The notes beneath the pieces were generated by a model. That model did not search any database, was not told where the DNA came from, and saw only the letters and a list, made by a program, of their open reading frames with translations. A program made the translations under genes and the position numbers. Below, piece after piece: positions 1-63,538 of a stretch of 64,000 bases of DNA; position 1 is the first letter of the stretch; the number at the start of each line of letters is the position of its first letter. The stretch is from Prostheceraeus crozeri (Eukaryota > Platyhelminthes > Polycladida > Euryleptidae): assembly GCA_907163375.1 (NCBI GenBank), contig CAJQUW010002996.1:1-64000 (forward strand). Reading direction: 5' to 3'.

Positions 1-965
1 TGTTGCTTATTAATCACCTCATTTAAATAATCTACAACCAATTTAACTGAAGTAATAATGCGAGGCATCAACACTCTTGTTTCATGTAAGATACCGCCTA
101 AAGGCTCTACACACTTTCTGTATAAAGATATGGTCCATTCTGTATCAAATTGATTTGACCTTTCACATGGCAAATGTTGCATATCAAATTTTCCATGAAA
201 AGCTGCAGAACGATGTCGTAAGAACTGATGAAAATCTTTTGAACAAACTAATACTAGATCATCATCATTTAATTTACTTATTGCAATATGATTAGATGAT
301 TTGATATAAGTCAATGTTGCCACTTGTTTACCATCAACTCGAAGGAGATAATTAAATTTCTTCAATAATGTTTCAGGAGTCATGTCTGTCTTTCTTGGCT
401 TAATCACAATCTTCTTCACCAACGTCTTCTCATTTTTTGGAATAAGATCTACATAATAAGCTTCCTCTCGATATATTAACTGTTTATGACCACTTGGGTG
501 GTAATTAACGTTATAATTATCATAGCTTGTTAAGGCGCTAGCGAGGTATTCTAAATCATTTCTTAAACTTGGACTTAAACCAACAATCCAATCTTTATCA
601 ACTACATGATGTACATAATTATGATCATCATTGTGCGGAGTAAATTGGACAATATGTTTACACGCTTTAGTCAGGAAATCATATATAAACTTTTTACATG
701 ATAAGAGATCTTTCTTTGGCCACTGTGGAATGTATACTCGGCAGCCGTTTTCACATTGGTAAGCAGCTGTGCGTCTCATATTAATAGTCATCACCTCATG
801 ATCAAAAGTATAGACACAGTTGCTATGAACAAGTTGAGTGACACCCACTTCCCACTTTCCATTTAGCTGTTGTGTATGATCAATGGGAGTAGAAAAGAGT
901 GCGGCTCGATTACTAGCAAATCTATTTGCAGCCGCATTGCTAAGCAAAATATGATAAAACGACAT
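1..965 (-). CDS. Polinton-type conserved protein, probable virion component (partial, runs off the left edge)
   Basis: An open frame of at least 321 codons runs without a stop from an ATG at 963-965 to the left edge, so its C-terminus is outside the window. The N-terminus reads MSFYHILLSNAAANRF and is followed by LNGKWEVGVTQLVHSN. This kind of N-terminus (a short beta-rich start, then a G-x-WEV motif) recurs in a protein commonly found in Polinton/adintovirus-like elements. I recall it as structural, but its exact role (penton-like, fibre-like or other) is not established by what I can see. It is transcribed away from the plus-strand PC4-like genes, with only 32 bases between the two start codons, so they may share a divergent promoter. 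No TATA box is obvious. I am sure of the open frame and fairly sure of the family, but unsure of the function. Confidence 0.6.
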   Translation of the reverse strand, partial: MSFYHILLSNAAANRFASNRAALFSTPIDHTQQLNGKWEVGVTQLVHSNCVYTFDHEVMTINMRRTAAYQCENGCRVYIPQWPKKDLLSCKKFIYDFLTKACKHIVQFTPHNDDHNYVHHVVDKDWIVGLSPSLRNDLEYLASALTSYDNYNVNYHPSGHKQLIYREEAYYVDLIPKNEKTLVKKIVIKPRKTDMTPETLLKKFNYLLRVDGKQVATLTYIKSSNHIAISKLNDDDLVLVCSKDFHQFLRHRSAAFHGKFDMQHLPCERSNQFDTEWTISLYRKCVEPLGGILHETRVLMPRIITSVKLVVDYLNEVINKQ

Positions 966-997
966 TTTGATATTGCTGATCTGCGGCTTTGCATAAC

Positions 998-1357
998 ATG
1001 ATGAAGACGTGGATTTTGGACTCTCTACAATATATCAGAGTTGATCGTAATGGAAACGTACATTTCAAAAATTCTCATGGTCATACATCAAGAGGTATTA
1101 CATTAACATGGCGACAATTTGTCAACCTCAATGATATCATGAGGGATTTGGAATATTTTGAAACATTAAGATTCATCTCCTTGGGTGATCAAGTTTGGCT
1201 TCAACATTACAGAAATGAAATTCAAATCTGCCATTCTCATTCCGCAAACTGTTTTTCCTTTCACAAATACAATTGGGAGAAGTATAGAAGATACATACAT
1301 CGCTCCATCATGACATTTATTCGTCGTGAGTTCATCGCCCTACTATGCAAATCTTAA
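998..1357 (+). CDS. PC4-like (p15 coactivator-like) small protein, copy 1
   Basis: A 119-residue ORF starting at tandem ATGs (998 and 1,001); an upstream in-frame TTG is not needed. The protein has the layout W-x-LDSLQ-x-I, then D-x-NGNVHFKNS, then RGITLTWRQF, then GDQVWL and WEKYRR. The strand-strand-strand-helix order, with 'hydrophobic-x-F-K' followed by 'I-x-L-x-W/Q', resembles the PC4/p15 single-stranded DNA-binding coactivator domain. That assignment is by eye and remote. Family knowledge: PC4-type domains bind ssDNA and assist transcription or replication. The next ORF is a paralogue in tandem, and a TBP-like ORF follows, which supports a transcription role. It could instead be an unrelated viral DNA-binding protein. 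Confidence 0.5.
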   Translation: MMKTWILDSLQYIRVDRNGNVHFKNSHGHTSRGITLTWRQFVNLNDIMRDLEYFETLRFISLGDQVWLQHYRNEIQICHSHSANCFSFHKYNWEKYRRYIHRSIMTFIRREFIALLCKS

Positions 1358-1379
1358 TCAGACATGACTACCACGCACC

Positions 1380-2030
1380 ATGAGTTGGAAATTAGATTCC
1401 CTACAACGTATTGAAACGGATCATGATCGAAATGTCTATTTCAAAGATTCAACTGGAAATGTGGGAAGAGAGTTTGCTTCATCTTATCGTCATTTTCAAT
1501 CTCTACATCATATCATGAAGGATTTTAAATACTTCTATATGAAAAGACATTCACGTATTGGAAATCGCATATGGTTGCGCGTCAACAATCGGCGAATTCA
1601 ACTCTATCATTCCCAACTCCATACTAACTTCACATTTCATCAAGGTAGTTGGGAAAAGTATAAAAGGAAGGTACATTGCTCAATTTATTCATTTTATCAT
1701 CATGAAGCGCCATCGCTACACCATCGTCAACATTCTCCGTCGCTTCAGACTCTGCACCAAAATCGATTTCACAACCTTACAACAACACCTTCCAAACAGC
1801 AAGTATTACCCGGGCCGACCTCAAATGTTAGTGGTGAAGATGAACAATACACGGAATCTTCAACTCTTCCCAAATGGCACTGTACAGATTCTCGGCGCCC
1901 TTTCTCATTCATCGGCGCAGTCAATGCGCTTAGAGCTACAGAGACTACTACGTCGGATATGGAAGAGGGAGAGGTGTGTGATGTCGAATCTGACTGTGGA
2001 CAATATGGTGATCTCTACTCAATTGAGTGA
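1380..2030 (+). CDS. PC4-like small protein, copy 2, with long acidic/polar tail overlapping the TBP-like gene
   Basis: A 216-residue ORF. Residues 1 to about 108 are a clear paralogue of the preceding ORF: the same W-x-LDSLQ-x-I start, NVYFKDS, HIMKDFKYF, IGNRIWL, QLYHSQ and WEKYKRK in the same order. Copy 1 stops soon after this domain, while copy 2 reads on for about 108 more residues (rich in S/T/Q/H, with an acidic end containing MEEGEVCDVESDCG). That extension lies wholly inside the TBP-like ORF in another frame (1,702-2,030). The tail may be a genuine overlapping extension, or copy 2 may have lost its stop codon. Spacing to copy 1 is 22 bases. The duplication is certain; the PC4 assignment is tentative. 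Confidence 0.5.
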   Translation: MSWKLDSLQRIETDHDRNVYFKDSTGNVGREFASSYRHFQSLHHIMKDFKYFYMKRHSRIGNRIWLRVNNRRIQLYHSQLHTNFTFHQGSWEKYKRKVHCSIYSFYHHEAPSLHHRQHSPSLQTLHQNRFHNLTTTPSKQQVLPGPTSNVSGEDEQYTESSTLPKWHCTDSRRPFSFIGAVNALRATETTTSDMEEGEVCDVESDCGQYGDLYSIE

Positions 2031-2247
2031 AAGTGTATCATTTTTGAAGATTCGTACCAGCAGTTACAATTTGTGTTATGAGCCCGAACTTCATCCTGCA
2101 GCTCTCATTAGTTGTTGGTTACCTGTGCATGTTGCAATCTTTCATAATAGTAAAGTGATCATTACTGGACTAAAATCTCATGTACAAGCAAATGCGATCC
2201 TAGACTATCTCATCGAGTATGTACGTACCCAGCGGATTGTAAAATAG
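1702..2247 (+). CDS. TATA-binding-protein-like factor
   Basis: A 181-residue ORF; the frame is open further upstream, but the ATG at 1,702 removes the part that overlaps the PC4-like domain. It consists of two similar halves, as in TBP. Half 1 (about residues 5-88) has YTIVNILRRFRL, KYYPGRPQML and a hydrophobic strand ending in LFPNGTVQILG before a helix. Half 2 (about 92-175) has NMVISTQLS, CYEPELHPAALI and VAIFHNSKVIITGLKSH before a final helix. The 'Y-x-P-x-x-(F/H)P' plus '(I/L)F-x-(S/N)-K/T-V-x-(I/L)-(T/L)G' pairing in each half is the TBP signature. TBP binds the TATA box and nucleates transcription initiation. Here it would give the element its own initiation factor, paired with the PC4-like proteins. 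The alternative is another two-repeat saddle fold. It converges on the protease gene, with 26 bases between stops. Confidence 0.6.
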   Translation: MKRHRYTIVNILRRFRLCTKIDFTTLQQHLPNSKYYPGRPQMLVVKMNNTRNLQLFPNGTVQILGALSHSSAQSMRLELQRLLRRIWKRERCVMSNLTVDNMVISTQLSESVSFLKIRTSSYNLCYEPELHPAALISCWLPVHVAIFHNSKVIITGLKSHVQANAILDYLIEYVRTQRIVK

Positions 2248-2272: not shown

Positions 2273-2278
2273 TTTATT
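2273..2278 (-). terminator. Poly(A) signal AATAAA overlapping the protease stop codon
   Basis: On the minus strand the protease ends AAA TAA, directly followed by A residues, so the canonical AATAAA hexamer shares bases with the stop. It would end the minus-strand late block immediately after its last gene. The plus-strand TBP-like gene ends only about 26 bases away on the other side. Confidence 0.6.
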
Positions 2279-2735
2279 TCAAATCATGATAGAACTTACA
2301 AATCATTTTTTCATTAGAGGATGGATTACATGAAAAGTTTTGAATAACAGATATAAATCGCGATACATGTAAACGTTTTAAGATGAAGTACAGTACAAAA
2401 GCAGAACACGTTGATGAAAGTGGATGTTGTAGTATGCGTTCATTTCGCTGATATTGACGCGTATGTTTTCTCAACCACTGCTGTGTTGGTATATTTGGAG
2501 GTTGACCAAGAGAGTCAAATAGCTCACCACGTCGGTCTTCTCTAATAAAGATCACTTTCCAATGCTCACCGCCCAAATTCTGCGAATGAGTGTTTAGCAC
2601 AATAAAGATGGGATAGTGATTTACTGCAGGTGGTAAGGTATCGAGCGAATAGACATTATCGAAAGCTTTCAACGTCGCTTCGTCTGCATTACGCTGCACT
2701 TTAGTCTTAATATCGTCAGCAGTCAACCAACTCAT
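2274..2735 (-). CDS. Adenain-like cysteine protease
   Basis: A 153-residue ORF resembling the adenovirus protease (C5) family found in Polintons and adintoviruses. Visible catalytic elements in order are His58 in GGEHWKVIFI, Asp74 in ELFDSLGQPP, Gln103 in LQHPLSS and Cys110 in STCSAFVLYF. The order His-Asp/Glu-Gln-Cys and the family length both fit, so it looks intact. It would cut capsid and core precursors during virion maturation. Two proteins of this element carry a shared Q-(K/R)-G-G site that may be its substrate. Its ATG overlaps the capsid stop by one base, so it is probably the last gene of a polycistronic-like block. The stop codon lies inside an AATAAA-type poly(A) signal. Confidence 0.88.
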   Translation of the reverse strand: MSWLTADDIKTKVQRNADEATLKAFDNVYSLDTLPPAVNHYPIFIVLNTHSQNLGGEHWKVIFIREDRRGELFDSLGQPPNIPTQQWLRKHTRQYQRNERILQHPLSSTCSAFVLYFILKRLHVSRFISVIQNFSCNPSSNEKMICKFYHDLK

Positions 2736-4012
2736 TAACGATTATACTGAAGAATCACGTCACGATACCTTGTAATTTCAATGTTTGAATCGAAGACTGC
2801 ATAAATTAATACATTGATCGTCTCAGGTAGTGTTCTTTTGAACGTCAAATCCAAACGAATATTATGAGGCACGTTCGCTTGACGATAGGGTGCACTAATA
2901 TCGCTGTCAGCAGTCAAATCAAATGCATAAATATTATATCCACTCTTAAACTCTTTCATAGTGAGTCCGTTGGTGTCATCCGTATTGCAAAAGCCAAAGA
3001 CATCCATAAAATCAACATTACTGCGCATAAATTGATCCGCAGCAAAATCTGGTTTGTAGGGTGGACCAGGATGACTCACACCATTTACACGTAAAGCAAT
3101 TTCACTTAACTGATTGTGTTTAAAATTGAAAGGATTCTTCTTTATATTACCATTAAATGCATCATTTTCAACCATTGCCACCATGAGGAGCTTCGGTGCT
3201 TCCGATGGAAAGAGGCCATCTTTCATGAAACTCTTTTGATCCTTCGGAATTGTAAAGGTGAGAAGCTTTGTATGCTGAACGGGGTAAATGGCATTTTGGC
3301 GGTTAAGACCTTTAGCATGTCCTCTAATGACACTTGGATTCGGTACTACTCGACGAATGTAAAGTGCAATATCTTCCACATGAATTCTAAAATTGTCAAC
3401 TTTACCAAATGCATTCAGCGCAAATTCAGGCTTATTCAATGTCAGCTTGAGTCGCATGCTGGTATTACAGAGTAAAAACTTTGACTGTCTAAAGAAGTCT
3501 AAATTCAGCGGACCATATAGCTGACATACTTTACTATCTTTAATCATAGCAGATCGCTTTACAAAGCCACTGTTTGTTTCAGCATCAAATTTTCCTGCTT
3601 CATCTCTGTATCATCCCATGGCTTCCATATGACTTTTTTGTGCTGCTGGATGAAACTGTGATACATGATTGAAATGTGATTTATAGGGATAATTGCTTTG
3701 ACCACCTTCCACCTGCTGCTCTCCAATCGTTAGAGAAACATCGCGAAGTAATGTAGTCAATGGTAAATTGTTCAGTCCAACTATATGTGTATCGTCAATA
3801 GCAGTTCCATCTGCTTGCTGAATTCTAAACCTCAAATCAACCATCGAATAACTCAAATCTATGCAGTCATCACTACCACCAGGAATAACAAATTCAATGG
3901 GGCCAGCATTCTCAGCTGTTCGAGGATAATAATCTACAATACTTGAACTAAGAATATCTGTCTGTATGGCTTGTTGATCAAACAAACAAAACCCGGACGT
4001 TTTACACTCCAT
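2735..4012 (-). CDS. Major capsid protein, double jelly-roll type (one frameshift)
   Basis: Two frames together cover one Polinton/adintovirus-type major capsid gene of about 425 residues. The 5' part (4,012 to about 3,611) has YYPRTAENAGPIEFVIPGG, a DLSYSMVDL strand, DGT and the N-x-x-LTTLLRDV segment, then a NYPYKSHFNH motif. These are typical of the first jelly roll. Its frame then stops at 3,611-3,613. The gene continues at once in another frame, with no gap, into the 270-residue ORF at 2,735-3,547. One single-base indel near 3,608-3,614 explains the switch. Function (family knowledge): forms the icosahedral shell. The ATG lies two bases after the stop of the upstream core-like gene, and the 3' end overlaps the protease ATG. 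It may be a true pseudogene or a sequencing error. Confidence 0.85.
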
Positions 4013-4014
4013 GA

Positions 4015-4470
4015 TTAGAAGTTATGGCAGCGTCGTCGTTTAGCGCCTGATGAATGATTAGAGCCTCTGCGACGTTTGCGTGAATAACTTTTGACTGAAG
4101 ATCGCACCTTACCAGCTCCGCGATGTTTCCTTCTTCCTTTATTCATTCGTTTAGGCGATTTCCTTCCTTGAGTAACACCAGCAAAGGTCTGCTTCAATGT
4201 TTTTAAACCGCGTTCCTTCCAACGATTCAACAAACTGCTCTTAAAACTTCTACCTCTGGAAAGATCACTAGCAACATCACCAGCAAAGCCAACGGCATTA
4301 CTTAAAACATTTCGTTTTAAAGATCTTCCGACATTGGATATGAGAGGTGCTACAACAGATTTCAGTGCACCAAGTATGCTACCTCCACGTTGGCGGCGAG
4401 CGCCGATGTAAATTTGTCCTCCACCACTTACATAGGAGGGTCGTGAATAAAATGAGGCAGTTGGATTCAT
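4015..4470 (-). CDS. Basic core/minor-capsid-like protein with internal GG processing site
   Basis: A 151-residue ORF. Residues 1-30 are Gly/Tyr rich and end in QRGG (27-30). An amphipathic, Ala/Val/Leu-rich stretch follows (about 31-65, starting SILGALKSVV). The C-terminal third is very basic, with runs of K and R (KRRRG, GAKRRR), suited to DNA packing. The layout resembles the adenovirus-like pVI/pX proteins of adintoviruses: a protease site, an amphipathic helix and a nucleic-acid-binding tail. It sits directly before the capsid gene (two-base gap) in the late block. The reading frame is intact. The family is inferred from position and composition, since such proteins conserve little sequence. 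Confidence 0.6.
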   Translation of the reverse strand: MNPTASFYSRPSYVSGGGQIYIGARRQRGGSILGALKSVVAPLISNVGRSLKRNVLSNAVGFAGDVASDLSRGRSFKSSLLNRWKERGLKTLKQTFAGVTQGRKSPKRMNKGRRKHRGAGKVRSSVKSYSRKRRRGSNHSSGAKRRRCHNF

Positions 4471-4511
4471 AGCTCAAACCCTAAACATTGTTAGTTACAA
4501 CTTTGCATGAA

Positions 4512-5731
4512 TCACTGTCGATCACTTAGATGAAAGATGTCGGCACGACGCATCCAAGAGTTCATACTTGAAGGATAACCAGTCCATTTAACAAGACACC
4601 ATTCTTCACCTTGTCGTTTTTTACATCGAATGATTTTCTCTACCAAATATGTTTCACTTTCAGTGACTACCTCAATCTCATCGCGGTAAAAGCTACCCTC
4701 AATTTCTTCATTATCGTAATCTTTCAACTTGTAGATGGTGGGAGAATCTTTTTGATCAATCCTTGATACTGTAAATACCTCCTCTGTCCAATTCGAAGGT
4801 ACCCTTTAGCAAAAACACTCTTCACTTTTGAGATACGAACTTTATCACCAATTTTCACATCACTTTTCACATGAGTGCGTTTACGTTGGAATGATTCGCG
4901 CACTTTATCTACATTGTCAGCATTTACATCTACTGGTCTGAGTCCAATAGAACGATGGATAGAGTGATTGTAGGCATGGAGTGTATCTTGTAGAACCTTT
5001 GTCCAATTTTGTGTCAAGTTGGCAGTAAAATGTCGCCACAAGCGATTTTTTAATGTGCGATTAAAACGTTCAACGAGTGCAGCTTTATAAGCACTCTTTA
5101 CACTAAACAACTCAATGTCATGCCTCTCAAATAATCTTCTCACATGCTGATTTTCAAACTCTTTTCCTTGATCACTCTGAATTCTTTTTGGAATGCAACC
5201 TTCTCGAAAAATTGTTTGGAATGCTTTTGCTACTCCTTTCCCTTCTTTAGTTTTTAAAGGTTGAGCCCACGCATGACGCGAGAAAATATCAATGACGGTT
5301 AAAATAAAATTATTGCCCGAGTTATTTTTTGAAATGGAGGCAACATCACACAAATCTGCTTGCCACTGTTCATCGATGTCATGAACAATATAATGGCGGG
5401 TGCGGTACTTCTTTTTCGCTTGTTTGTGGAGTGTATAGGTAGCCTGACCCTTTAACCCTCGTTTCACTTGTGATTGTGGAAGACCACTCGCTTTTGATAA
5501 TTTCTTGATCGATGCAAATCCTGCCGGATGTTTTACATCATAATAGATTGACTTCAAACGTTCAGTCGATGACGACTGACTCTTTTTCCTCCTTCTCATC
5601 TTTTTGTTTTCTTGCCTTTCTACATTTACAACAACTGCAGCATTTAGCTTTAGCGGTTTTGCGATCGTGTTCACATTGCTTAGGGGTTTCATTATGAGAG
5701 CTGGCGCAGCAAGTGCAAGTGACAACGACAT
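4512..5731 (-). CDS. Retroviral-type (rve) integrase with C-terminal chromodomain (one frameshift)
   Basis: The main frame (4,724-5,731) carries a Polinton integrase: a helical N-terminal part with KSIYYDVKHPAGFASI, then the DDE core with Asp126 (QADLCD), Asp187 (IQSDQGKEF) and Glu221 (VERFNR), followed by GDKVRISK. Near 4,793-4,797 the frame shifts by one base. The 71-residue frame at 4,512-4,727 continues it with FYRDEIEVV and a chromodomain (YLVEKIIRCK, WCLVKWTGYP, NSWMRR). The protein joins the element's ends to host DNA, and the chromodomain probably guides it to chromatin. The ATG at 5,731 lies inside the Cys-rich ORF; the ATG at 5,599, just before the conserved region, is an attractive alternative start. 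It is either a recently broken gene or a base-calling error. Confidence 0.87.
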
Positions 5732-5778: not shown

Positions 5779-6471
5779 TTAATAGTCTGAGAACATGTAT
5801 TTCTTGGGAGGAGCTGTTTTACGTTTTCCTTTTACCAGTTTTAGTGGTGGCGTAGATCTACGTCGAGTTCTTCCTCTTGTTTGCTTAGTGAGTGTGGGAG
5901 GGGATGTAGCAGGTGACGTCTTAAACCAATTTGTTGGCATTTTCATCGTCTGAAGCATTGGAGCAGTAGCCACTGTTGAATCAAGTTCTTTCAATGTCTC
6001 ATTATTCAAAGCAAATTTTGGCACATTATGCTTTTTCAATAGTTTAAGAAAGTATGTCCAACCAGGTGGAACATAGCCCTGACGGCGCTTTCTACGTGTC
6101 GCATACTGAATCAAGTCTTCATAACGTGAAGCATCAATCACTTTATTTTCATCTGTAATGATTTCTCCTCTATCATTTACATTGAGATGGGGTTCAATAC
6201 TATTGAAAAGAGATATGGCATGTGCGCGAGATGCTAGAGGTGTAGCAGTCGATACAGAGTCACGCATCTTATTCTTCAAGTTTTTCAATTGCTCAACAGT
6301 TTCCGATTGTAATAATACAGCACGATGTGGATCTTTGATGTGAACATTTTGCTGATAATCTATTTCTTTCCTATACATTTGATTTGCAAGAGGTTGCTTT
6401 ACTTGCTGCATGGCAGTCAATTGTACATATTCATCCTGAGGAATAACAATCATGCGAGAATAAGAACTCAT
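5779..6471 (-). CDS. Polinton-type conserved protein of unknown function
   Basis: A 230-residue ORF whose ATG overlaps the ATPase stop (ATGA). A helical N-terminal half (QDEYVQLTAMQQ, KNLKNKMRD) is followed by a conserved-looking middle: RYEDLIQYATRRKRRQGYVPPGW, then TYFLKLLKKHNVPKF. The C-terminus is Pro/Thr/Lys/Arg rich with TRGRTRRRST and KGKRKTAPPKK, which probably act as nuclear targeting or DNA-binding tails. Proteins with a 'basic cluster-GYxPPGW' middle, next to the ATPase and integrase, are familiar from Polinton-like elements. I know of no proven function; a minor virion protein is a guess from its place in the block. Confidence 0.6.
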   Translation of the reverse strand: MSSYSRMIVIPQDEYVQLTAMQQVKQPLANQMYRKEIDYQQNVHIKDPHRAVLLQSETVEQLKNLKNKMRDSVSTATPLASRAHAISLFNSIEPHLNVNDRGEIITDENKVIDASRYEDLIQYATRRKRRQGYVPPGWTYFLKLLKKHNVPKFALNNETLKELDSTVATAPMLQTMKMPTNWFKTSPATSPPTLTKQTRGRTRRRSTPPLKLVKGKRKTAPPKKYMFSDY

Positions 6472-7085
6472 AGTTTGTAGATAATCATGGGCGTTTTCAA
6501 AATATCACTTCGAAATCTAAATTCTTCCGGACACTCTTGCGTAAAGTCAATGAATAAGTAACCGTGTGGTTTTTCAGTAGCTGCTTGAAAAATTTCAATT
6601 AAGGCTTTTGATCCTCTTGGTGCAACTTGTCGCGCTAAAATTTCAAATTGACTTTTATCTCGCGGATTCTTGAAAATAGCATAATAGTGTGTATTCAGGT
6701 TTCGTGTACGAGCTTCTTTTCCATCAGGAAACAAATTTTGTGTGATATAGATGATAAAGCACCTTTTATGATGTGCTGCGCGAGTGAACATATCTGTAAC
6801 ATCTTTTGAATTCTTACTTTCTTTTAATAAATCATCCAATACAACAACATCATTAGACTGAAGTTTATCCACTGCAATAATTCCTTCATGTCGAATAAAG
6901 TTGCGACTTTGCAATTCCTGAAACAGCGACGGTTGATAAATACCATAACACCAAATCACTCGATTGATAGGTTCCTTAAACAACTCCCTTCTTTTATCCA
7001 ATAAATTCAGCGTGAAAACAGTTTTACCTGCATGAGATGGACCTGATACAGTCAGAACTTTATCACATTGAAGTCTGAAATCCAT
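6468..7085 (-). CDS. Genome-packaging ATPase (FtsK/HerA-A32 type)
   Basis: A 205-residue protein from the ATG at 7,085; the frame is open to about 7,133 but only a TTG is available there. Counted from the ATG, the Walker A motif GPSHAGKT lies at residues 15-22, Walker B VVVLDD at 80-85, and the sensor-like IYITQN at about 112-117. The region FTRAAHHKR before the sensor also fits A32-like packaging ATPases of Polintons, adintoviruses and large DNA viruses. The enzyme would pump DNA into the capsid. The gene is uninterrupted. It follows the basic 116-residue ORF by 31 bases and overlaps the next gene by four bases (ATGA). Confidence 0.88.
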   Translation of the reverse strand: MDFRLQCDKVLTVSGPSHAGKTVFTLNLLDKRRELFKEPINRVIWCYGIYQPSLFQELQSRNFIRHEGIIAVDKLQSNDVVVLDDLLKESKNSKDVTDMFTRAAHHKRCFIIYITQNLFPDGKEARTRNLNTHYYAIFKNPRDKSQFEILARQVAPRGSKALIEIFQAATEKPHGYLFIDFTQECPEEFRFRSDILKTPMIIYKL

Positions 7086-7116
7086 TATAATACTTTGAGA
7101 TTCAACATTTGCATAA

Positions 7117-7467
7117 TTAACGTCTAGAGCCAAAGATATTACCCAATACGTTGCCCACGATAGGAGCTAGCATCGGTAGTAACGCTGGAAGGAAACCGCC
7201 CTTTTGTGTTAGAGTTTCCCTCTTTCTTTGAAGGGTGACATTAGGATTGGAGATGAAGCGCAATTTTGTGGCATATCGCTTAAGTAACTTTCGTTGTTTT
7301 GGTGCTAATTTCTTCGTCCTCAACTTTCTCACATGAGAAATAATTTCACAAATGAATTTATCGTTAGCATGTCGTATAGCATTGGATCGCTGATTTGCTT
7401 TCATTCGTCGGAGAGCTTGAATGGCTGAAGAAAACTTTGAAGACTTTTGACTTTTACGTTTCGCCAT
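7117..7467 (-). CDS. Small basic protein with GG site and hydrophobic C-terminus (minor-capsid-like)
   Basis: A 116-residue ORF with an ATG at 7,467. Residues 1 to about 86 are strongly basic and helical (AKRKSQKSSKF, RRMKANQR, KRYATKLR). QKGG at 88-91 is followed by a hydrophobic, Pro/Leu/Gly-rich tail (FLPALLPMLAPIVGNV) ending in SRR. A basic body, a protease-like GG site and a membrane-active-looking tail recur in adintovirus/Polinton minor virion proteins. The same Q-basic-G-G motif occurs in the core-like protein at 4,015-4,470. It lies immediately upstream of the ATPase. The role is inferred; a packaging or membrane-penetration accessory is plausible. Confidence 0.5.
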   Translation of the reverse strand: MAKRKSQKSSKFSSAIQALRRMKANQRSNAIRHANDKFICEIISHVRKLRTKKLAPKQRKLLKRYATKLRFISNPNVTLQRKRETLTQKGGFLPALLPMLAPIVGNVLGNIFGSRR

Positions 7468-7518
7468 TTTCCGTGTTAGTCTTTGCTAAAACTTGTCTTT
7501 ACCACATTTGCATAGGTA

Positions 7519-8342: not shown

Positions 8343-8873
8343 TTATAAATCAATGGTTTGAAAGAGATAAAATAGATACAGCTGGTAACTATCATACAGC
8401 GAGCAATGATAACCATACAGGACTTTGGCAGTGTTGAGGTAAGGAGGAAAGAAGCATTGGTTATGAACGTAGCTACTACAACGAACAGACAAAATAGGAA
8501 CAGACAAATCCTTAAAACGTTTCGTGACTTCATGATAATGTTGATTCACTCTACTATCCCAAGGCGGGAGCAAAATGTCATCAATGATTAGATTGGGAAA
8601 TACTTTCCTCTCCTTGCCAGGATTATTACAAAAGATGCGTATAACATTGAAAGCAGCTAACCATCGTTTAAAGTCAATAAGAAGAGCACTCTCACAAGAA
8701 AAGCCGTGGTCTTGCAAATATTTCAGGTTAAGTCCATGAATGTGTTTTCTCGCCGATTGATCAACATTGGGATCGCAGTTGGCATGTTGATGATAGACAC
8801 TAACAATCTGATATGTCCAATTGTTCATAGCAATAGCACTGAGCTCCTGTACAGGTTCACCCTCACAATCCAT
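8343..8873 (-). CDS. Exonuclease-like (DEDD superfamily) protein, tentative
   Basis: A 176-residue ORF with an ATG at 8,873. It starts MDCEGEPVQELSAI, with an acidic D-x-E at residues 2-4 on a first beta strand, as in DEDD 3'-5' exonucleases. NLKYLQDHGFS and ALLIDFKRWL follow (a helix where such enzymes carry their second site), then NLIIDDILLPPWDSRVNQHYH with further acidic and His residues. Similar D-x-E-G proteins are common as accessory genes of Polinton/adintovirus-like elements. A nuclease role in replication or recombination is inference. The C-terminal 30 residues (SLYDSYQLYLFYLF) look ordinary, so I see no truncation. It is the first gene of the long minus-strand block. Confidence 0.45.
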   Translation of the reverse strand: MDCEGEPVQELSAIAMNNWTYQIVSVYHQHANCDPNVDQSARKHIHGLNLKYLQDHGFSCESALLIDFKRWLAAFNVIRIFCNNPGKERKVFPNLIIDDILLPPWDSRVNQHYHEVTKRFKDLSVPILSVRCSSYVHNQCFFPPYLNTAKVLYGYHCSLYDSYQLYLFYLFQTIDL

Positions 8874-10689: not shown

Positions 10690-12360
10690 ATGCTAAATCC
10701 TGTCTTCTTACCGGATACTGCATTTGATGTAATTTCCAAGCTCCCTAATTCAACCAGCATGGATGCAGACGGATTATATTACTTAATGATAAAGAAATGT
10801 GCCCTTTAACTATCACCATTATTATCAAGAATTTTTAAAGTGTAGTATGATTCTCTAGCTATTCCCAGTGGGTGGAGAACTGTCGCGATCACTCTTGTCT
10901 TTAGAAATTAGGTGTAAAGAATTGTATTCAGAATTACAGACCCATTACAATCTCTTCTGCATTGTGAAAAGAATCCTCAGGCAAGCTATTACTGACTATT
11001 GCTTCGCCAACAACATGCTGTCTTCTTCACAACACGGCTTCGTACCCAAAAGATCAACCGAAACAGCAAATCTTGACTTCTATGAGGTCATTACTAAAAC
11101 CGTTGACATGCGGAATACTGTTGATATCATGTTTCTAGATTACAGCAAAGCGTTCGAAAGAGTTCCACATGAACGTTTGATCTCTAAATTGCAATATTAT
11201 GGTTTTGACAATCGACTGATGGATGAATTGGCTAATTAATTATTTCACAGATCGCGAGCAAATGGTACTTTTTGATGGTTTCGAATCCTCCTCACGTTGC
11301 ATACGCAGTGGTGTTATCCAGGCCTCAGTAGTGGGTCTAACACTATTTGTATTATACATGAATGATTTCGAGGAGAATATAATGTCTTCAAAAGTTATCA
11401 AGTATCCGGATGACGTTAAAGTTGCATGCCTTCGACCGACTTCCACCCTAAAACCTTTACAAAGTGACATCCAAACAGTCGAAGAATGGAATGATTTTCA
11501 ATCAGCAAAAATGTGATATTATGCAGCTAGGGAATTCTGAAAGCATGGAGTCCTATTATCTGGGATGAATGCTCCCTTTGTGCAGTCTTACAAGGATCTT
11601 GGAATTTTGGTGATGAATGATCTTTCTTTTGACAATCATATCAACAGCATTGTAAATTGCGCAAGAAGACAGTGGGGCTTAATTCGGCGCACATTTAGCT
11701 ATTTGGAAGCAAATGCTATAGTTTTGTTATACAAGCCTCATGTTCGCAGCATAATAGAGTATGGCAATGCATTATGGAATCCTTACCAAGAAAAAACAGT
11801 AATCGAGAGTGTACAAAGGCGCATGTCTAAGAGTAACTGCCAAACGAAGCATTTGTCATATTGTGAGAGACTCAGAACTCTGGATCTGTTATCACTTAAG
11901 GCTCGAAGATTGCGATATCATCTCATTTTTCTTTATAAAATTGTTCATAATCACATTAATTTAAATGTTCATGACTTCTTTGAAATTTCAAATGAACCTA
12001 GAATTCGAGGCAAGTCTTCGCATATATCCAAAGCGTCATTGTCATCAATATAGATAATTTTTCTTCACAGTGTAAATCTTCAAATGCTGGAAATGCAGAC
12101 TGCCACTGAAATTAATTATAATAAATCTCCGTCAGTAAATATTTTTAAAAGGGTTGTCCATGAAATGTTTCATAAGCTTGATATCTGGTAACTATTTTTG
12201 TATACACATGAATGTGAAATTTATTGGACGGTTGAGTGCAACTGTACTGCACTCCAAGTGTAATTCAAATTTTGTTAAAACAGTTTTGTCGTTGTCTTGC
12301 CCTCGATTTGGGCCTTGTATTTTCTTTGATGAAATACAGATATTATTATTATTGTCAATA
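10690..12360 (+). mobile_element. Degenerate non-LTR retrotransposon (LINE) reverse transcriptase and 3' end
   Basis: Frames at 10,868-11,239, 11,223-11,516 and 11,565-12,053 together give a LINE reverse transcriptase: QHGFVPKRSTETANLDF, VDIMFLDYSKAFERVPH, the catalytic box changed to YPDD (normally Y/F-A-D-D), then YKDLGILVMND and a thumb-like HVRSIIEYGNALWNP. Traces of the upstream 'IPS.WR' region appear near 10,860. The 3' end finishes in an ATT-type microsatellite (about 12,334-12,358), usual for CR1/L2/jockey-like lineages. Multiple frameshifts and the altered catalytic box mean it is dead. The 5' end is missing. Confidence 0.85.
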
Positions 12361-33966: not shown

Positions 33967-35301
33967 TTATTGCACAGTACACAAAGTCTCGCGCTTCGCG
34001 CTCGACTTAGCGTACTGTGCAATAACTATTACTTCCTTCACCTTTCTCTTATACCAATGCCCCTCACCAGCTAAAATCCGCCCTTCCCGCCACGCCATCC
34101 TATGACCTTCTTCCCAACAATGTTTCGCTATCTCAGAGGTAGTAATACTTGCTTTTTCAACATTTTTCTTGTGCTCTTTTGTTCTCACCTCCAGACCTCT
34201 TTTTGTCTCTCCGATGTAAACTTTGTCACAATCTGAGCATGGAATACTGTAAATTATCTCTTTCCTTTCTATTGCCTCCCTCTTTCTTATGAGTCCTTTC
34301 CCGATAGAACCGGAATTCTTCTCGAACACTTTTATCTTGTGCCTTCTCATAATGTTGTAAATTCTCTCAGACAAATTATTTTGGTATGGTAAACAGACTA
34401 CTCCTTCCCAATCATCATCTTTCACATCTACATGTATTTTCTCCTTCCTGACTGATCGAAGGCATCTCTCTATGAAACCCCTGCTGTAACCATTCTGCCG
34501 AAAAGCCCACTTCAGATGTTCAAATTCCTCCTCTCTATTGTCTCCGTCACATACCTTCATCGCTCGTCTTATCAAACCTTTCAAAACTCCCGACTTGACC
34601 CGTTCGCTGTGATTCGATCGTTCATTAATATATAAATCCGTGTGTGTTTTCTTTCTGTAGACCTTGGTAATAATTCTTTTTTCCTTTTTCTCTAGCTCTA
34701 CATCCAAGAATGCCAAACTCCCTGTATTCTCGTTTTCTGTTTCGTACGTGAATTTTATATCGGGATGAACCGAATTCATAAATTCCACCAACTCTTCTAT
34801 GTCTTCCCCATTGCCCTCCACTACATCCAAACAGTCATCTACGTAGCGAAGATGCTTCTTTGGTACGACCAGACCTAGTGACCTCGCATTCTCAAATATA
34901 GACTCCTCGAAGTCAGCCATAAACAGATCTGCCAACACTGGAGCAAGACAACTGCCGATGCTCAGACCCTTGACTTGCTGATAATTCTCTCCATTAAATT
35001 GGAAGAAAGAGGATTTCAAAATTTTCTCAAGCAAGTCCAGAATACTCTCTACTCCCCAACTGCATCTCTTCTGTAAAGTATCATCCGATCTCAGTCTCTT
35101 TTCTACACTCTTGATCGCTCTTTCAATCGGCACTGACGGATACATGGCTTTTACATCTAACGAAATCAAACGATCTGCTTCCTCAAGTTCCCATTCCTTC
35201 ACTTGCATGCACAGTGCCTCTGTATCCTTGACCCTGCTGACCACACCTTTCCTATAAACATTCAAAATCTCCACAAGCTTCTTAGAGAGCGGAGAAGTCA
35301 A
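33967..35301 (-). CDS. PLE reverse transcriptase with GIY-YIG endonuclease (interrupted at both ends)
   Basis: A 444-residue frame. The RT fingers/palm include ADRLISLDVKAMYPSVP (first Asp) and KGLSIGSCLAPVLADLFM, and the catalytic box LRYVDDCLDV is at 153-156. The GIY-YIG endonuclease follows at about 349-380: IYSIPCSDCDKVYIGETKRG, then the conserved R and EH residues (KEHKKNV). This RT plus GIY-YIG order defines endonuclease-positive Penelope-like elements, which prime cDNA at nicked target DNA. The 5' part is separated by the MITE, with FGLPKVHKEGTP visible just upstream (35,300-35,365) in a shifted frame. The last residues (from about IAQ to LCTVQ) are encoded by the array's hairpin, not by the PLE. 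Confidence 0.85.
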   Translation of the reverse strand: MTSPLSKKLVEILNVYRKGVVSRVKDTEALCMQVKEWELEEADRLISLDVKAMYPSVPIERAIKSVEKRLRSDDTLQKRCSWGVESILDLLEKILKSSFFQFNGENYQQVKGLSIGSCLAPVLADLFMADFEESIFENARSLGLVVPKKHLRYVDDCLDVVEGNGEDIEELVEFMNSVHPDIKFTYETENENTGSLAFLDVELEKKEKRIITKVYRKKTHTDLYINERSNHSERVKSGVLKGLIRRAMKVCDGDNREEEFEHLKWAFRQNGYSRGFIERCLRSVRKEKIHVDVKDDDWEGVVCLPYQNNLSERIYNIMRRHKIKVFEKNSGSIGKGLIRKREAIERKEIIYSIPCSDCDKVYIGETKRGLEVRTKEHKKNVEKASITTSEIAKHCWEEGHRMAWREGRILAGEGHWYKRKVKEVIVIAQYAKSSAKRETLCTVQ

Positions 35302-60724: not shown

Positions 60725-61719
60725 ATTTTGGATTTCTCTACTTGACAATGTATCCGCATTTCCATGTTGCACACCCGCTCGATGTTCAATGTCAAAATCA
60801 TATTCTTGTAATGACACCAACCAGCGCGCTGTCCTTCCATATCATTCAGATTTGAGTCATTTTAATGACGCATGATCTGTCCGTATAAGAAAACGTGTAC
60901 CCAACAAATACGTCCTGAACACTTTACAGAAATGGACAACTGCGAGCAACTCTTTTCTGGTGGTGCAATAATTTCTTTGATGTTTGTTTAACGTTTTACT
61001 TCCATTGGCTATCACTTTCTTTTCACCATTTATTTCTTGTGACAATACGGCCCCAATTGCCTGGTCGCTAGCATCAGTGTCGAGAACAAACTTTCCTGCA
61101 TCTTTACCTACTTGAGGAAACGACAAAATAGGCGTAGAAGTCAAGAGTGATTTCAACTTTTCGAAGGAACCCTGGCATTTGTCTGACCAGTTAAACTTTT
61201 CATCACCTGATAACTGTGTGATGGGTGTTGAAATCTCCGCGAAATTCCGTATGAATCGCCGATAGCATCCTGCTAACCCCATAAAAGATTTCACATCAGA
61301 CTTCGGCCAGTTGCTTATTTTGTCAGTCTTTTTAACATCCACTAATGCCGTTGTCAGATACTAAATGGCCCAAGAATGCCACTTCTCTCTTAAGGAACAC
61401 ACACTTCTTCGCATTTAATGTCAAACCTGCATCTTTGAATTTTTGAAATATTGAGCGTATTTGTCTCAAATGCTCTTCAAAAGTTTTACTAAAACATATT
61501 ACGTCATCAAGATAAACTAAGCATCTATCCCCGCATATCCCATTAAGAACTACCGACATAAGACGTTAGAACGTAGCTGGAGCATTGCACAAACCCATAG
61601 GCATCCGCAAAAATTCAAACAGGCCTTTATGAGTTGTAAAAGTCGTCTTCTCTACATCATCTTCATGAAGAGGTACCCGCCAATAGCCAGAAGCCAAGTC
61701 CATAATACTGGAATACTTA
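60725..61719 (-). pseudogene. Gypsy/Ty3 pol fragment: RT palm to RNase H (3' part)
   Basis: In minus-strand order: DLASGYWRVPL and FLRMPMGLCNAPATF (to 61,566), then CLVYLDDVICFSK with the YLDD catalytic box (61,332-61,559). The RT connection follows with SFMGLAGCYRRFIRNF, then RNase H with FVLDTDASDQAIGAVLSQ, the KELLAVV motif and IRTDHASLK (60,857-61,342). Beyond this, stops appear and the sequence fades (DFDIEHRAG-like remnant to about 60,725). No integrase or LTR is visible. A stop or frame change sits at about 61,560 and another at about 61,335. It is separated from its 5' half by a Tc1-like element. Confidence 0.85.
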
Positions 61720-63538
61720 CAGTGTGCGAAAAAAAGTATGGAATAATTCATCGTTCCTTGATATTTTTCAAGCTACATACAATTCCTTGCCCCTGACATT
61801 GATACAGTTGTATAGATTGTACTCTACTGTCTTATTTATTGTTCGACTGTTCTCTAGGCTCAACAAACAAGGTACTTGAGCACTATTTACCAATTTTCAT
61901 GCTTAGTTATAATGAATTTCGATATTCAAATATTATCTCTCTATTTACCAGAATTTGCGTGAAAAGTAAAAACTATCAAGTTGCATTTCAATTGTAATAA
62001 AAACAAATATTTTCATCATATTTCAAGTTTGCATCTCAAATAATAGATCAATAACTCTCCATGCTTGCAAAAATATTTCAGAAATATAGAGAATCTCACT
62101 GGAAAACAACATCATGATCAGTACTTGGTAGGGTAGCCGTGGTTCTTTAACACAGCTTTCATTCTTCTGGGCATCGAAGCCACCAGCCGTTGACACTCCT
62201 CCAATGTGACATTCATGCACCAAATTCGTTGGATCTCCGTCTTGAGTTCACCGACATTGCGGTAAGTCCTTGAATGAAGCTTTCTCTTCATCATTTGCCA
62301 AAGATTTTCTATTGGGTTTATGTCAGGACTGTTGCCTGACCAGTCCAACAACTGCACGTTATGCTGTGAAAACCAAGATTTCGCCTTTTTCGACACATGA
62401 CATGGCGCCGAGTCTTGTTGAAAAATTGTAGTTTGGTGGATGGTCATAAACTGGAACAATTTGTCATCCAGGACTGCCAGGTACTTGTTCGTGTTCATCC
62501 GTTCACCTTTGTTCAGGAATGTTATGGCACCGCGCCCTTGACAGCTGAAGCATCCCCAGACCATCACAGAATCCGGGTGCTTCAATGTCTTGGTTGTGTA
62601 TCGAGGAGATAGTGGTGATGATCCCATCGGTCGTCGAACATGCTGTCGGACATTGTGATGCACTTGGAAAGTTGATTCATCGCTAAATATCACCTTCTTC
62701 CACTGCTCAACTGTCCATGTTTCGTGAGCTTTACAGAACGCGAGTCGTTTCCGCCTAGCAGCTTGCGTAATGATAGGCTTTTTGACAGGACGCTTTGATG
62801 GTAATTTGAATTTATTCTTCAACCTCATTTGAATTGTTCTTGTTGTAACATTGTCCAAATGTGGAGTCAATTCTTGCTTTATTTCCAACTTGATCCGTGG
62901 TTTTCCTTGGGCGACCAGTACGATGTCTTGATGCTGTTGATCCTGTTTCACGTTGTCTCTTTAACACCTTGCTTACACTGCCTTGAGTCAGACCCGTTCT
63001 TTTTGCAATCTCGGTCTTGGAAAACCTTGTATGTTTGTGTAATGTAACAATTTGCGCCTTGATCCTTTCACTAAGCTCTCTCGTCTTCACCATCTCGTCT
63101 ACAATGGATCCCAGTAGAATGAATCACATTAAGGAAGTTGACCTCGGAATCTTCACTCTACATTGTAATCCAATCAAAAGCTCGTCACTAAGCCGCACTC
63201 CTCATCAGCAACAGGTATGCAGCCTTATTGGCCACTTGTACGTACGTAGCATTGTACGCTGGCAATGACGAATGCCAATAGTAGGCAAATGTCTGATAGC
63301 CGATGTCATCCTGCTTTGACCTTCCTATCGAGAATGAGTAGCAAACATAGAAACTATTTATTAAAGGAGCTGACGACTCGAAATGCTGATATTGAGACTC
63401 AGAATACAAAGTTGAAGCGTGAACATAACAATAACAATGTTATATAGTCAGTTTGCTGGCCAGCTAGTCTCATCAGAATGACTTCGTTAGAGAAACAGCG
63501 AGTGAAATAAAATTATTCCATACTTTTTTCGTACACTG
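61720..63538 (-). mobile_element. Tc1/mariner element (TA target duplication)
   Basis: The ends CAGTGTGCGAAAAAAAGTAT and (reverse) CAGTGTACGAAAAAAGTATG continue into GGAATAATT, about 28 bp of near-perfect inverted repeat. TA flanks both sides (61,718-61,719 and 63,539-63,540). Length is 1,819 bp with one transposase gene. It is inserted in the Gypsy RT domain. Confidence 0.92.
62118..63093 (-). CDS. Tc1-like transposase, DD34E (one frameshift)
   Basis: The N-terminal frame (63,093-62,812) starts MVKTRELSERIKAQIVTLHK with two helix-turn-helix regions (EIAKRTGLTQGSVSKVLKRQ) and the AT-hook-like GRPRKTT. The frame 62,118-62,951 holds the second paired-type helix region and the catalytic core: Asp91 in VIFSDESTF, Asp180 in FQQDSAPCH and Glu215 in NPIENLW. 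That is 34 residues between the last two, a DD34E triad. A single indel near 62,880-62,910 links the two frames. Function: cut-and-paste transposition at TA sites. All catalytic residues remain, so it is a young copy with one break. Confidence 0.9.

Follow-up and report, generated by a model that had tools for sequence, protein, structure and literature searches.

Few DNA-binding proteins are as highly conserved as TBP. It is already known from giant viruses, many of which carry an RNA polymerase of their own, and from mirus-like elements, both of which we take to be large, whereas the element described here is a small one of Polinton type. Structural matches to the element-encoded TBP include proteins of Heterosigma akashiwo virus, Terrestrivirus and others, at identities of at most 21%; a previous sequence-only reading of this DNA had stated that TBP homologues occur in some large DNA viruses. 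TBP genes have also been reported in mirus-like elements of Cymbomonas (PMC10675990). With the cellular protein, a subunit of TFIID, the element TBP shares the two repeats, the saddle fold, the canonical C-half contacts and the TFIIB stirrup, but it differs in its replaced N-half contacts, in forming a clade of its own and in being encoded by a mobile element.

In its layout of rve integrase, Ulp1 protease and capsid-, ATPase- and polymerase-type ORFs, the element resembles Polintons/Mavericks and adintoviruses, from which it is distinguished by an overlapping pair of genes for a PUR-type protein and a TBP. No report of a TBP in Polintons or adintoviruses was found in the literature searched; since coverage was partial and took in neither the paper that first described adintoviruses nor the Polinton review of 2024, this negative is not proof of absence. 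The terms TATA, TBP and PC4 gave no match in PMC11071296 and PMC11071308, and the TATA match visible in PMC12220804 and PMC13037468 is an author's name. The pair would add a transcription module to this virus group, none having been found for the group in the literature searched, and the combination of an own TBP with a shared promoter-like motif other than TATA suggests that the element may choose its own transcription starts.

Copies and lineages of the element family

The window, that is, the whole 64,000-nucleotide stretch of Prostheceraeus crozeri DNA that was analysed, begins inside one copy of the element, whose left end lies outside it (Table 1). The family is present in hundreds of copies in this one animal genome (assembly size, 2.05 Gb). 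When the window TBP served as query, all 150 scored places, the best of 11,781 first-look candidates, were full-length, at 95-100% and free of stops, a result that favours intact copies because the scored places were the best-scoring ones. Among the best 150 rows obtained with yeast TBP, the top three were two exons of the host TBP (C9306) and one TLF-like exon (C3829), and the remaining 147 score like element copies; the host has a canonical TBP of its own besides those of the element. Beside that canonical gene, a TLF/TRF2-like TBP relative of the host lies at G000:C3829:151570-151920 (40% to yeast TBP), in keeping with an animal host.

Forty-eight copies were fetched, 25 from the window-TBP search and 23 from the yeast-TBP search, and grouped by identity to the window into lineages A (38 copies, 93-100%), B (8 copies, 81-85%) and C (2 copies, 42%); of the 48, 46 have a full-length TBP frame. 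A database relative used as query had 150 of 150 places among the matches listed at 47-50% to that query, and ten fetched places from this search constitute lineage D (41-44% to the window), seven with a full-length TBP frame. Lineage D TBP places often form inverted pairs, 4-9 kb apart on the same contig (G000:C6222, C1764, C12105, C3532). A capsid search led to further copies, E, F and G. The capsid type of lineage E (G000:C8677, about 90 similar places) is 58-60% identical to that of lineage C, and the one copy fetched has no core, integrase, ATPase or TBP match nearby. The mean TBP difference is 1.6% among 34 A copies and 2.8% among 7 D copies, values small enough to indicate that both expansions are recent.

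The protein database searched contains 16 direct relatives of the TBP and 207 found by profile, 120 of which were listed and used. In a tree of 42 rows (30 of these 120, six genome copies and six cellular sequences), all element TBPs group together behind a 100/100 branch (length 3.23), and A/B and C/D occupy separate parts of the element family, with sequences from other sources between them. IMG/VR scans returned no relative of the TBP (single query, A1, A2), the ATPase, the integrase or the C-part of the capsid.

Table 1. Features of the element and its surroundings in the window
Feature	Position	Strand	Remarks
Divergent ORF	3..965	-	open at window edge; 32 nt between its ATG and that of PUR1
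Motif AAGCAA	942..947	+	56 nt before PUR1, inside divergent ORF
Motif ATGCAAA	988..994	-	29 nt before divergent ORF
PUR1	998..1357	+	PUR/Whirly-type fold protein; first of the ORFs earlier called PC4-like
Motif ATGCAAA	1345..1351	+	35 nt before PUR2, inside PUR1 frame end
PUR2	1380..2030	+	PUR1 paralogue, 40% identical; C-terminal tail runs over TBP gene
PUR2 tail/TBP N-half overlap	1702..2030	+	out of frame, 109 codons; stop-codon test
Element TBP	1702..2247	+	181 aa, two TBP repeats; Pfam, predicted-model fold matches, residue table
Ulp1-type protease	2274..2735	-	Pfam C48 E 0.013, below cut-off
Major capsid-type protein	2735..4012	-	53% identity to 426-aa lineage C ORF
Basic protein	4015..4470	-	probably core or minor virion; name by resemblance
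Motif ATGCAAA	4502..4508	-	38 nt before ORF 4015-4470
Retroviral-type integrase	4724..5731	-	Pfam rve 1.8e-10
Packaging ATPase-type protein	6468..7133	-	AAA_14 and Pox_A32 matches weak, below cut-off; 65% identity to lineage C
Adenovirus pX-like small protein	7117..7467	-	Pfam Adeno_PX E 0.00096, 19.4 bits, below cut-off 25
Motif ATGCAAA	7507..7513	-	46 nt before ORF 7117-7467
Transposon remains	10868-12053, 33967-35301, 60857-61342, 62118-62951		by eye

An asymmetric TBP and the PUR-type gene that overlaps it

A TBP-like ORF with two similar halves had been noticed from the letters alone, with profile search and structure prediction proposed as checks, and both bear it out: the TBP profile PF00352 matches the ORF in both repeats (E 1e-19, two stretches), and the predicted model of its product has a saddle fold of TBP type. 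The element protein is a TBP homologue and not necessarily a TATA binder. Residues were tabulated in yeast TBP numbering for up to 121 rows, with the residue roles known for TBP and with the L205 column, which was unaligned, left out of the judgement. The DNA-contact set, which spans the two halves and includes four Phe and two Asn, is incomplete: it is kept in the C-half and mostly replaced in the N-half. The C-half retains N159 and V161 (120/120 each), F190 (119/121), F207 and T215 (121/121 each), together with the glutamates of the TFIIB stirrup, E186 (119/121) and E188 (121/121); the window copy has His at the Phe190 position. The N-half keeps N69 (101/101) and F116 (121/121), and carries Pro for F99 in 115 of 116 rows, Gln for L114 in 111 of 121, Gln for V122 in all 121, and Leu, Met, Phe or Ile for T124, again in all 121; V71 is retained in just 5 of 106. 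On the TFIIA side, Glu stands at K133 in 55 and at K138 in 69 of the 121 rows. In four of the five alignments shown, the two cellular TBP repeats both align with the viral C-half. By sequence, the N-half has exchanged most of its contact residues for other, nearly invariant ones, the C-half being canonical. Values of dN/dS for the TBP (0.16-0.43 in four A-B lineage pairs; 0.05 in the overlap part and 0.33 in the rest for one B-B pair) indicate that its frame is under purifying selection. A large natural family in which one DNA-contact half is canonical and the other replaced, with a candidate promoter box besides, makes the reading of DNA by TBP testable.

The two ORFs upstream had been taken for tandem PC4-like proteins. 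The tandem arrangement was seen in two lineages, A and B, whereas a single PUR-type gene was found in each copy read of C, D, F and G; by fold the proteins appear nearer to PUR-alpha than to PC4. At the sequence level, these ORFs gave no match to the PUR-alpha/Whirly/PC4 fold superfamily, nor did a PHROGs search with them as queries return anything significant. PUR2 differs from that superfamily by its tail, which runs out of frame through about 109 codons of the TBP gene and spans the entire TBP N-half. The tail is also present in the relatives P0121, P0123 and P0125, and its end is alike across lineages (..LYSIE, ..VCSIE); the whole protein is 22% identical between C and A. The PUR2 frame stays open for at least 107 codons beyond the TBP start in 44 of 48 A-C copies and in all 10 D copies. 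Six copies from four lineages have no stop in this frame within the overlap, where synonymous recoding of the TBP, our null, leaves a mean of 5.0-6.5 (P 0.0002-0.0018); the same recoding reveals no such depletion in the third frame or in the rest of the TBP gene. Codon-position rates did not separate overlapping from non-overlapping stretches, so dual coding rests on the stop-codon test and the conserved tail. Among database TBPs with an N-terminal extension, a PUR helix is compatible in the shifted frame in 11 of 33 (p < 0.05) and in the control frame in 2 of 33. As the overlap covers just the N-half, it may have helped to shape it. The arrangement would amount to an overlap of roughly 110 codons between two protein genes that is maintained by selection.

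At 11 of the 150 listed TBP places the frame measures 292 aa instead of 234 and is open far upstream over PUR2. In the fetched examples, L008 and L046, the PUR2 match shifts frame near PUR2 residue 93-97, which places PUR2 and TBP in one frame.

A promoter-like motif and its possible readers

The divergent ORF/PUR pair of lineage A recurs in B and C, and the gap between the divergent ORF and PUR1 reads as a very compact two-way promoter region. Across lineages A, B and C, about 32-42 nt separate the start of the divergent ORF from that of the first PUR gene (window 966-997; L031; B copies).

The upstream regions (70 nt) of 14 A genes and 15 C genes were searched for oriented words, with 400 randomisations. 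The top words, ATGCAAA in A (7-mers) and AAGCAA in C (6-mers), were each reached in none of the 400, family-wise, and other word lengths gave family-wise P of 0.005-0.0425. The motif, at first ATGCAAA from A, was widened after C to A[ATG]GCAA; as it was chosen and widened on A and C, these are discovery sets, and F and G were tested with the motif fixed. Counted within 100 nt upstream, the forward motif occurs at 6 of 14 A genes (expected 1.45) and 9 of 15 C genes (expected 1.73), the reverse at 3 and 1, respectively. Within 70 nt, the held-out genes have it at 5 of 10 in F (expected 1.06, P 0.002; reverse 3/10, P 0.08) and 5 of 8 in G (expected 0.64, P 1.5e-4; reverse 1/8). In C, F and G it takes the form AAGCAAA or AGGCAAA, and in 21 of the 25 site-bearing genes of A, C, F and G a site starts 28-47 nt before the start codon. 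Forward TATAWA shows no enrichment upstream of element genes (A 1/14, C 4/15, D 1/6); it is found at 3 of 10 F and 2 of 8 G genes.

The 14 A genes remain from 18 upstream stretches after the ATPase, 7848, 8144 and 9742 were dropped because their starts are uncertain; the dropped ATPase does carry a site, 14 nt before its assumed start. Also dropped were ORF 6831 and the 239-aa ORF of C, and the first ORF of L058 and the exonuclease-like ORF of D. Lineage E (C8677) was excluded, its contig being of low complexity on one side and giving no match to core, integrase or ATPase on the other. One lineage F start codon is not ATG. Several sites, such as that of PUR2 in PUR1, fall within the coding frame of a neighbouring gene. 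In lineage B some sites are kept and others lost: that at 4502..4508 is retained in a B copy despite diverged flanks, and that at 7507..7513 in one of two.

The best explanation, in our view about as likely as not, is that the element encodes, in its half-rewired TBP, its own promoter-recognition factor. The C-half would still grip the 5' 'TA' end of the site and dock host TFIIB, and the changed N-half would accept a G/C-containing 3' half of the box, the pairing of halves with ends being assumed here from TBP crystal structures. Boxes of the TANGCAAA type, mostly 28-47 nt before element start codons, would replace TATA, and host TFIIB and Pol II would then initiate at element genes, with the PUR-type protein probably binding DNA that is opened or single-stranded, whether for promoter melting, for replication or for both. 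As far as its letters go, TANGCAAA resembles TATA at its 5' end and departs from it in the middle and in the 3' part, which fits a saddle that is asymmetrically altered. More tentative is the fuller proposal of an orthogonal core-promoter system in animal Polinton/adintovirus-type elements, in which a TBP N-half, rewired while coding part of a PUR-type protein, would read TANGCAAA rather than TATA, giving selective starts by host TFIIB and Pol II at element genes. No RNA polymerase gene was recognised in the element pieces read; it would also become testable how an integrated virus of this kind could redirect Pol II.

The earlier suggestion of initiation at the element's own promoters is partly and indirectly supported: the oriented, non-TATA motif, mostly 28-47 nt before start codons in A, C, F and G, the conserved TFIIB-contact residues and the purifying selection on the TBP frame speak for it. 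The main contrary results come from lineage D, where 1 of 6 genes has the motif though the lineage has a TBP, and from lineage G, whose copy has the motif and a PUR gene but, in the pieces read, no TBP match, be it between PUR and protease or outside that interval. Also counting against it are the reverse-strand hits in F, the sites inside neighbouring coding frames, the octamer-like motif of A and the choice of the motif on A and C. Lineage G could have lost its TBP recently; in the lineage F copy, PUR and TBP are both present, the latter split in two pieces.

The G copy is also what would be expected if the TBP served element promoters merely as a docking factor for host TFIIB and TANGCAAA were read by a host POU-type factor or by the PUR protein, which we think rather unlikely: the lineage A motif resembles the POU octamer, ATGCAAAT being, we presume, that octamer, but the forms in C, F and G are no octamer, and the position and orientation of the motif are core-promoter-like. 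A role of the pair in replication, with the TBP bending origin DNA and the PUR protein coating single strands, appears improbable. PUR/Whirly folds bind single-stranded DNA, and in a lineage D copy the pair accompanies polymerase, exonuclease-like and SSB-like ORFs (L068, L058, L069; C4198), and about 18 kb of that copy contain no match for a capsid, integrase, ATPase or protease, the copy being perhaps a capsid-less derivative; the conserved TFIIB-stirrup residues, however, would have no part in replication, and the pair adjoins the divergent ORF in A, B and C and the protease and capsid ORFs in A and C. That the TBP is a decoy drawing TFIIB from host promoters and lowering host transcription is very doubtful, since, although the stirrup is retained and the N-half DNA surface altered, the C-half DNA contacts, needless for a pure decoy, are nearly invariant too.

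Remaining genes of the element

The gene set named from the letters alone was capsid, protease, packaging ATPase and integrase. The integrase, the sole window ORF among the non-TBP element genes above its Pfam cut-off, is borne out and is 64% identical to that of lineage C, which has a chromodomain (rve 1.5e-13). The protease is upheld through its lineage C sister (L071:19-498, E 7.7e-05, above cut-off), to which it is 39% identical. Capsid, a double jelly-roll in Polintons and adintoviruses, and ATPase are named by resemblance or from matches below cut-off, the capsid-type ORFs of the window and of lineage C having no Pfam match and their name being our presumption. One lineage C copy has the same layout as the window, its 426-aa capsid-type ORF uninterrupted; that of the window is broken between 3547 and 3611, and the window copy, with its His at the Phe190 position, is decaying.

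Left of the cassette, a sister copy carries a 1260-aa ORF that shares 55% identity with one of 955 aa in lineage C. Both contain GGDTDSFF (DTDS motif), and Pfam gave a weak endonuclease VII match and no polymerase for them, 'polymerase' being a name by resemblance.

An exonuclease-like ORF (window 8343-8873 and just upstream; L071 near 7319; L072, L073) is preceded in lineages A, B and C by a pyrimidine-rich stretch ending in AG; an intron-like start would imply host splicing. On its flanks the element has remains of common transposons, which by eye resemble LINE, Penelope, Ty3 and Tc1 types.
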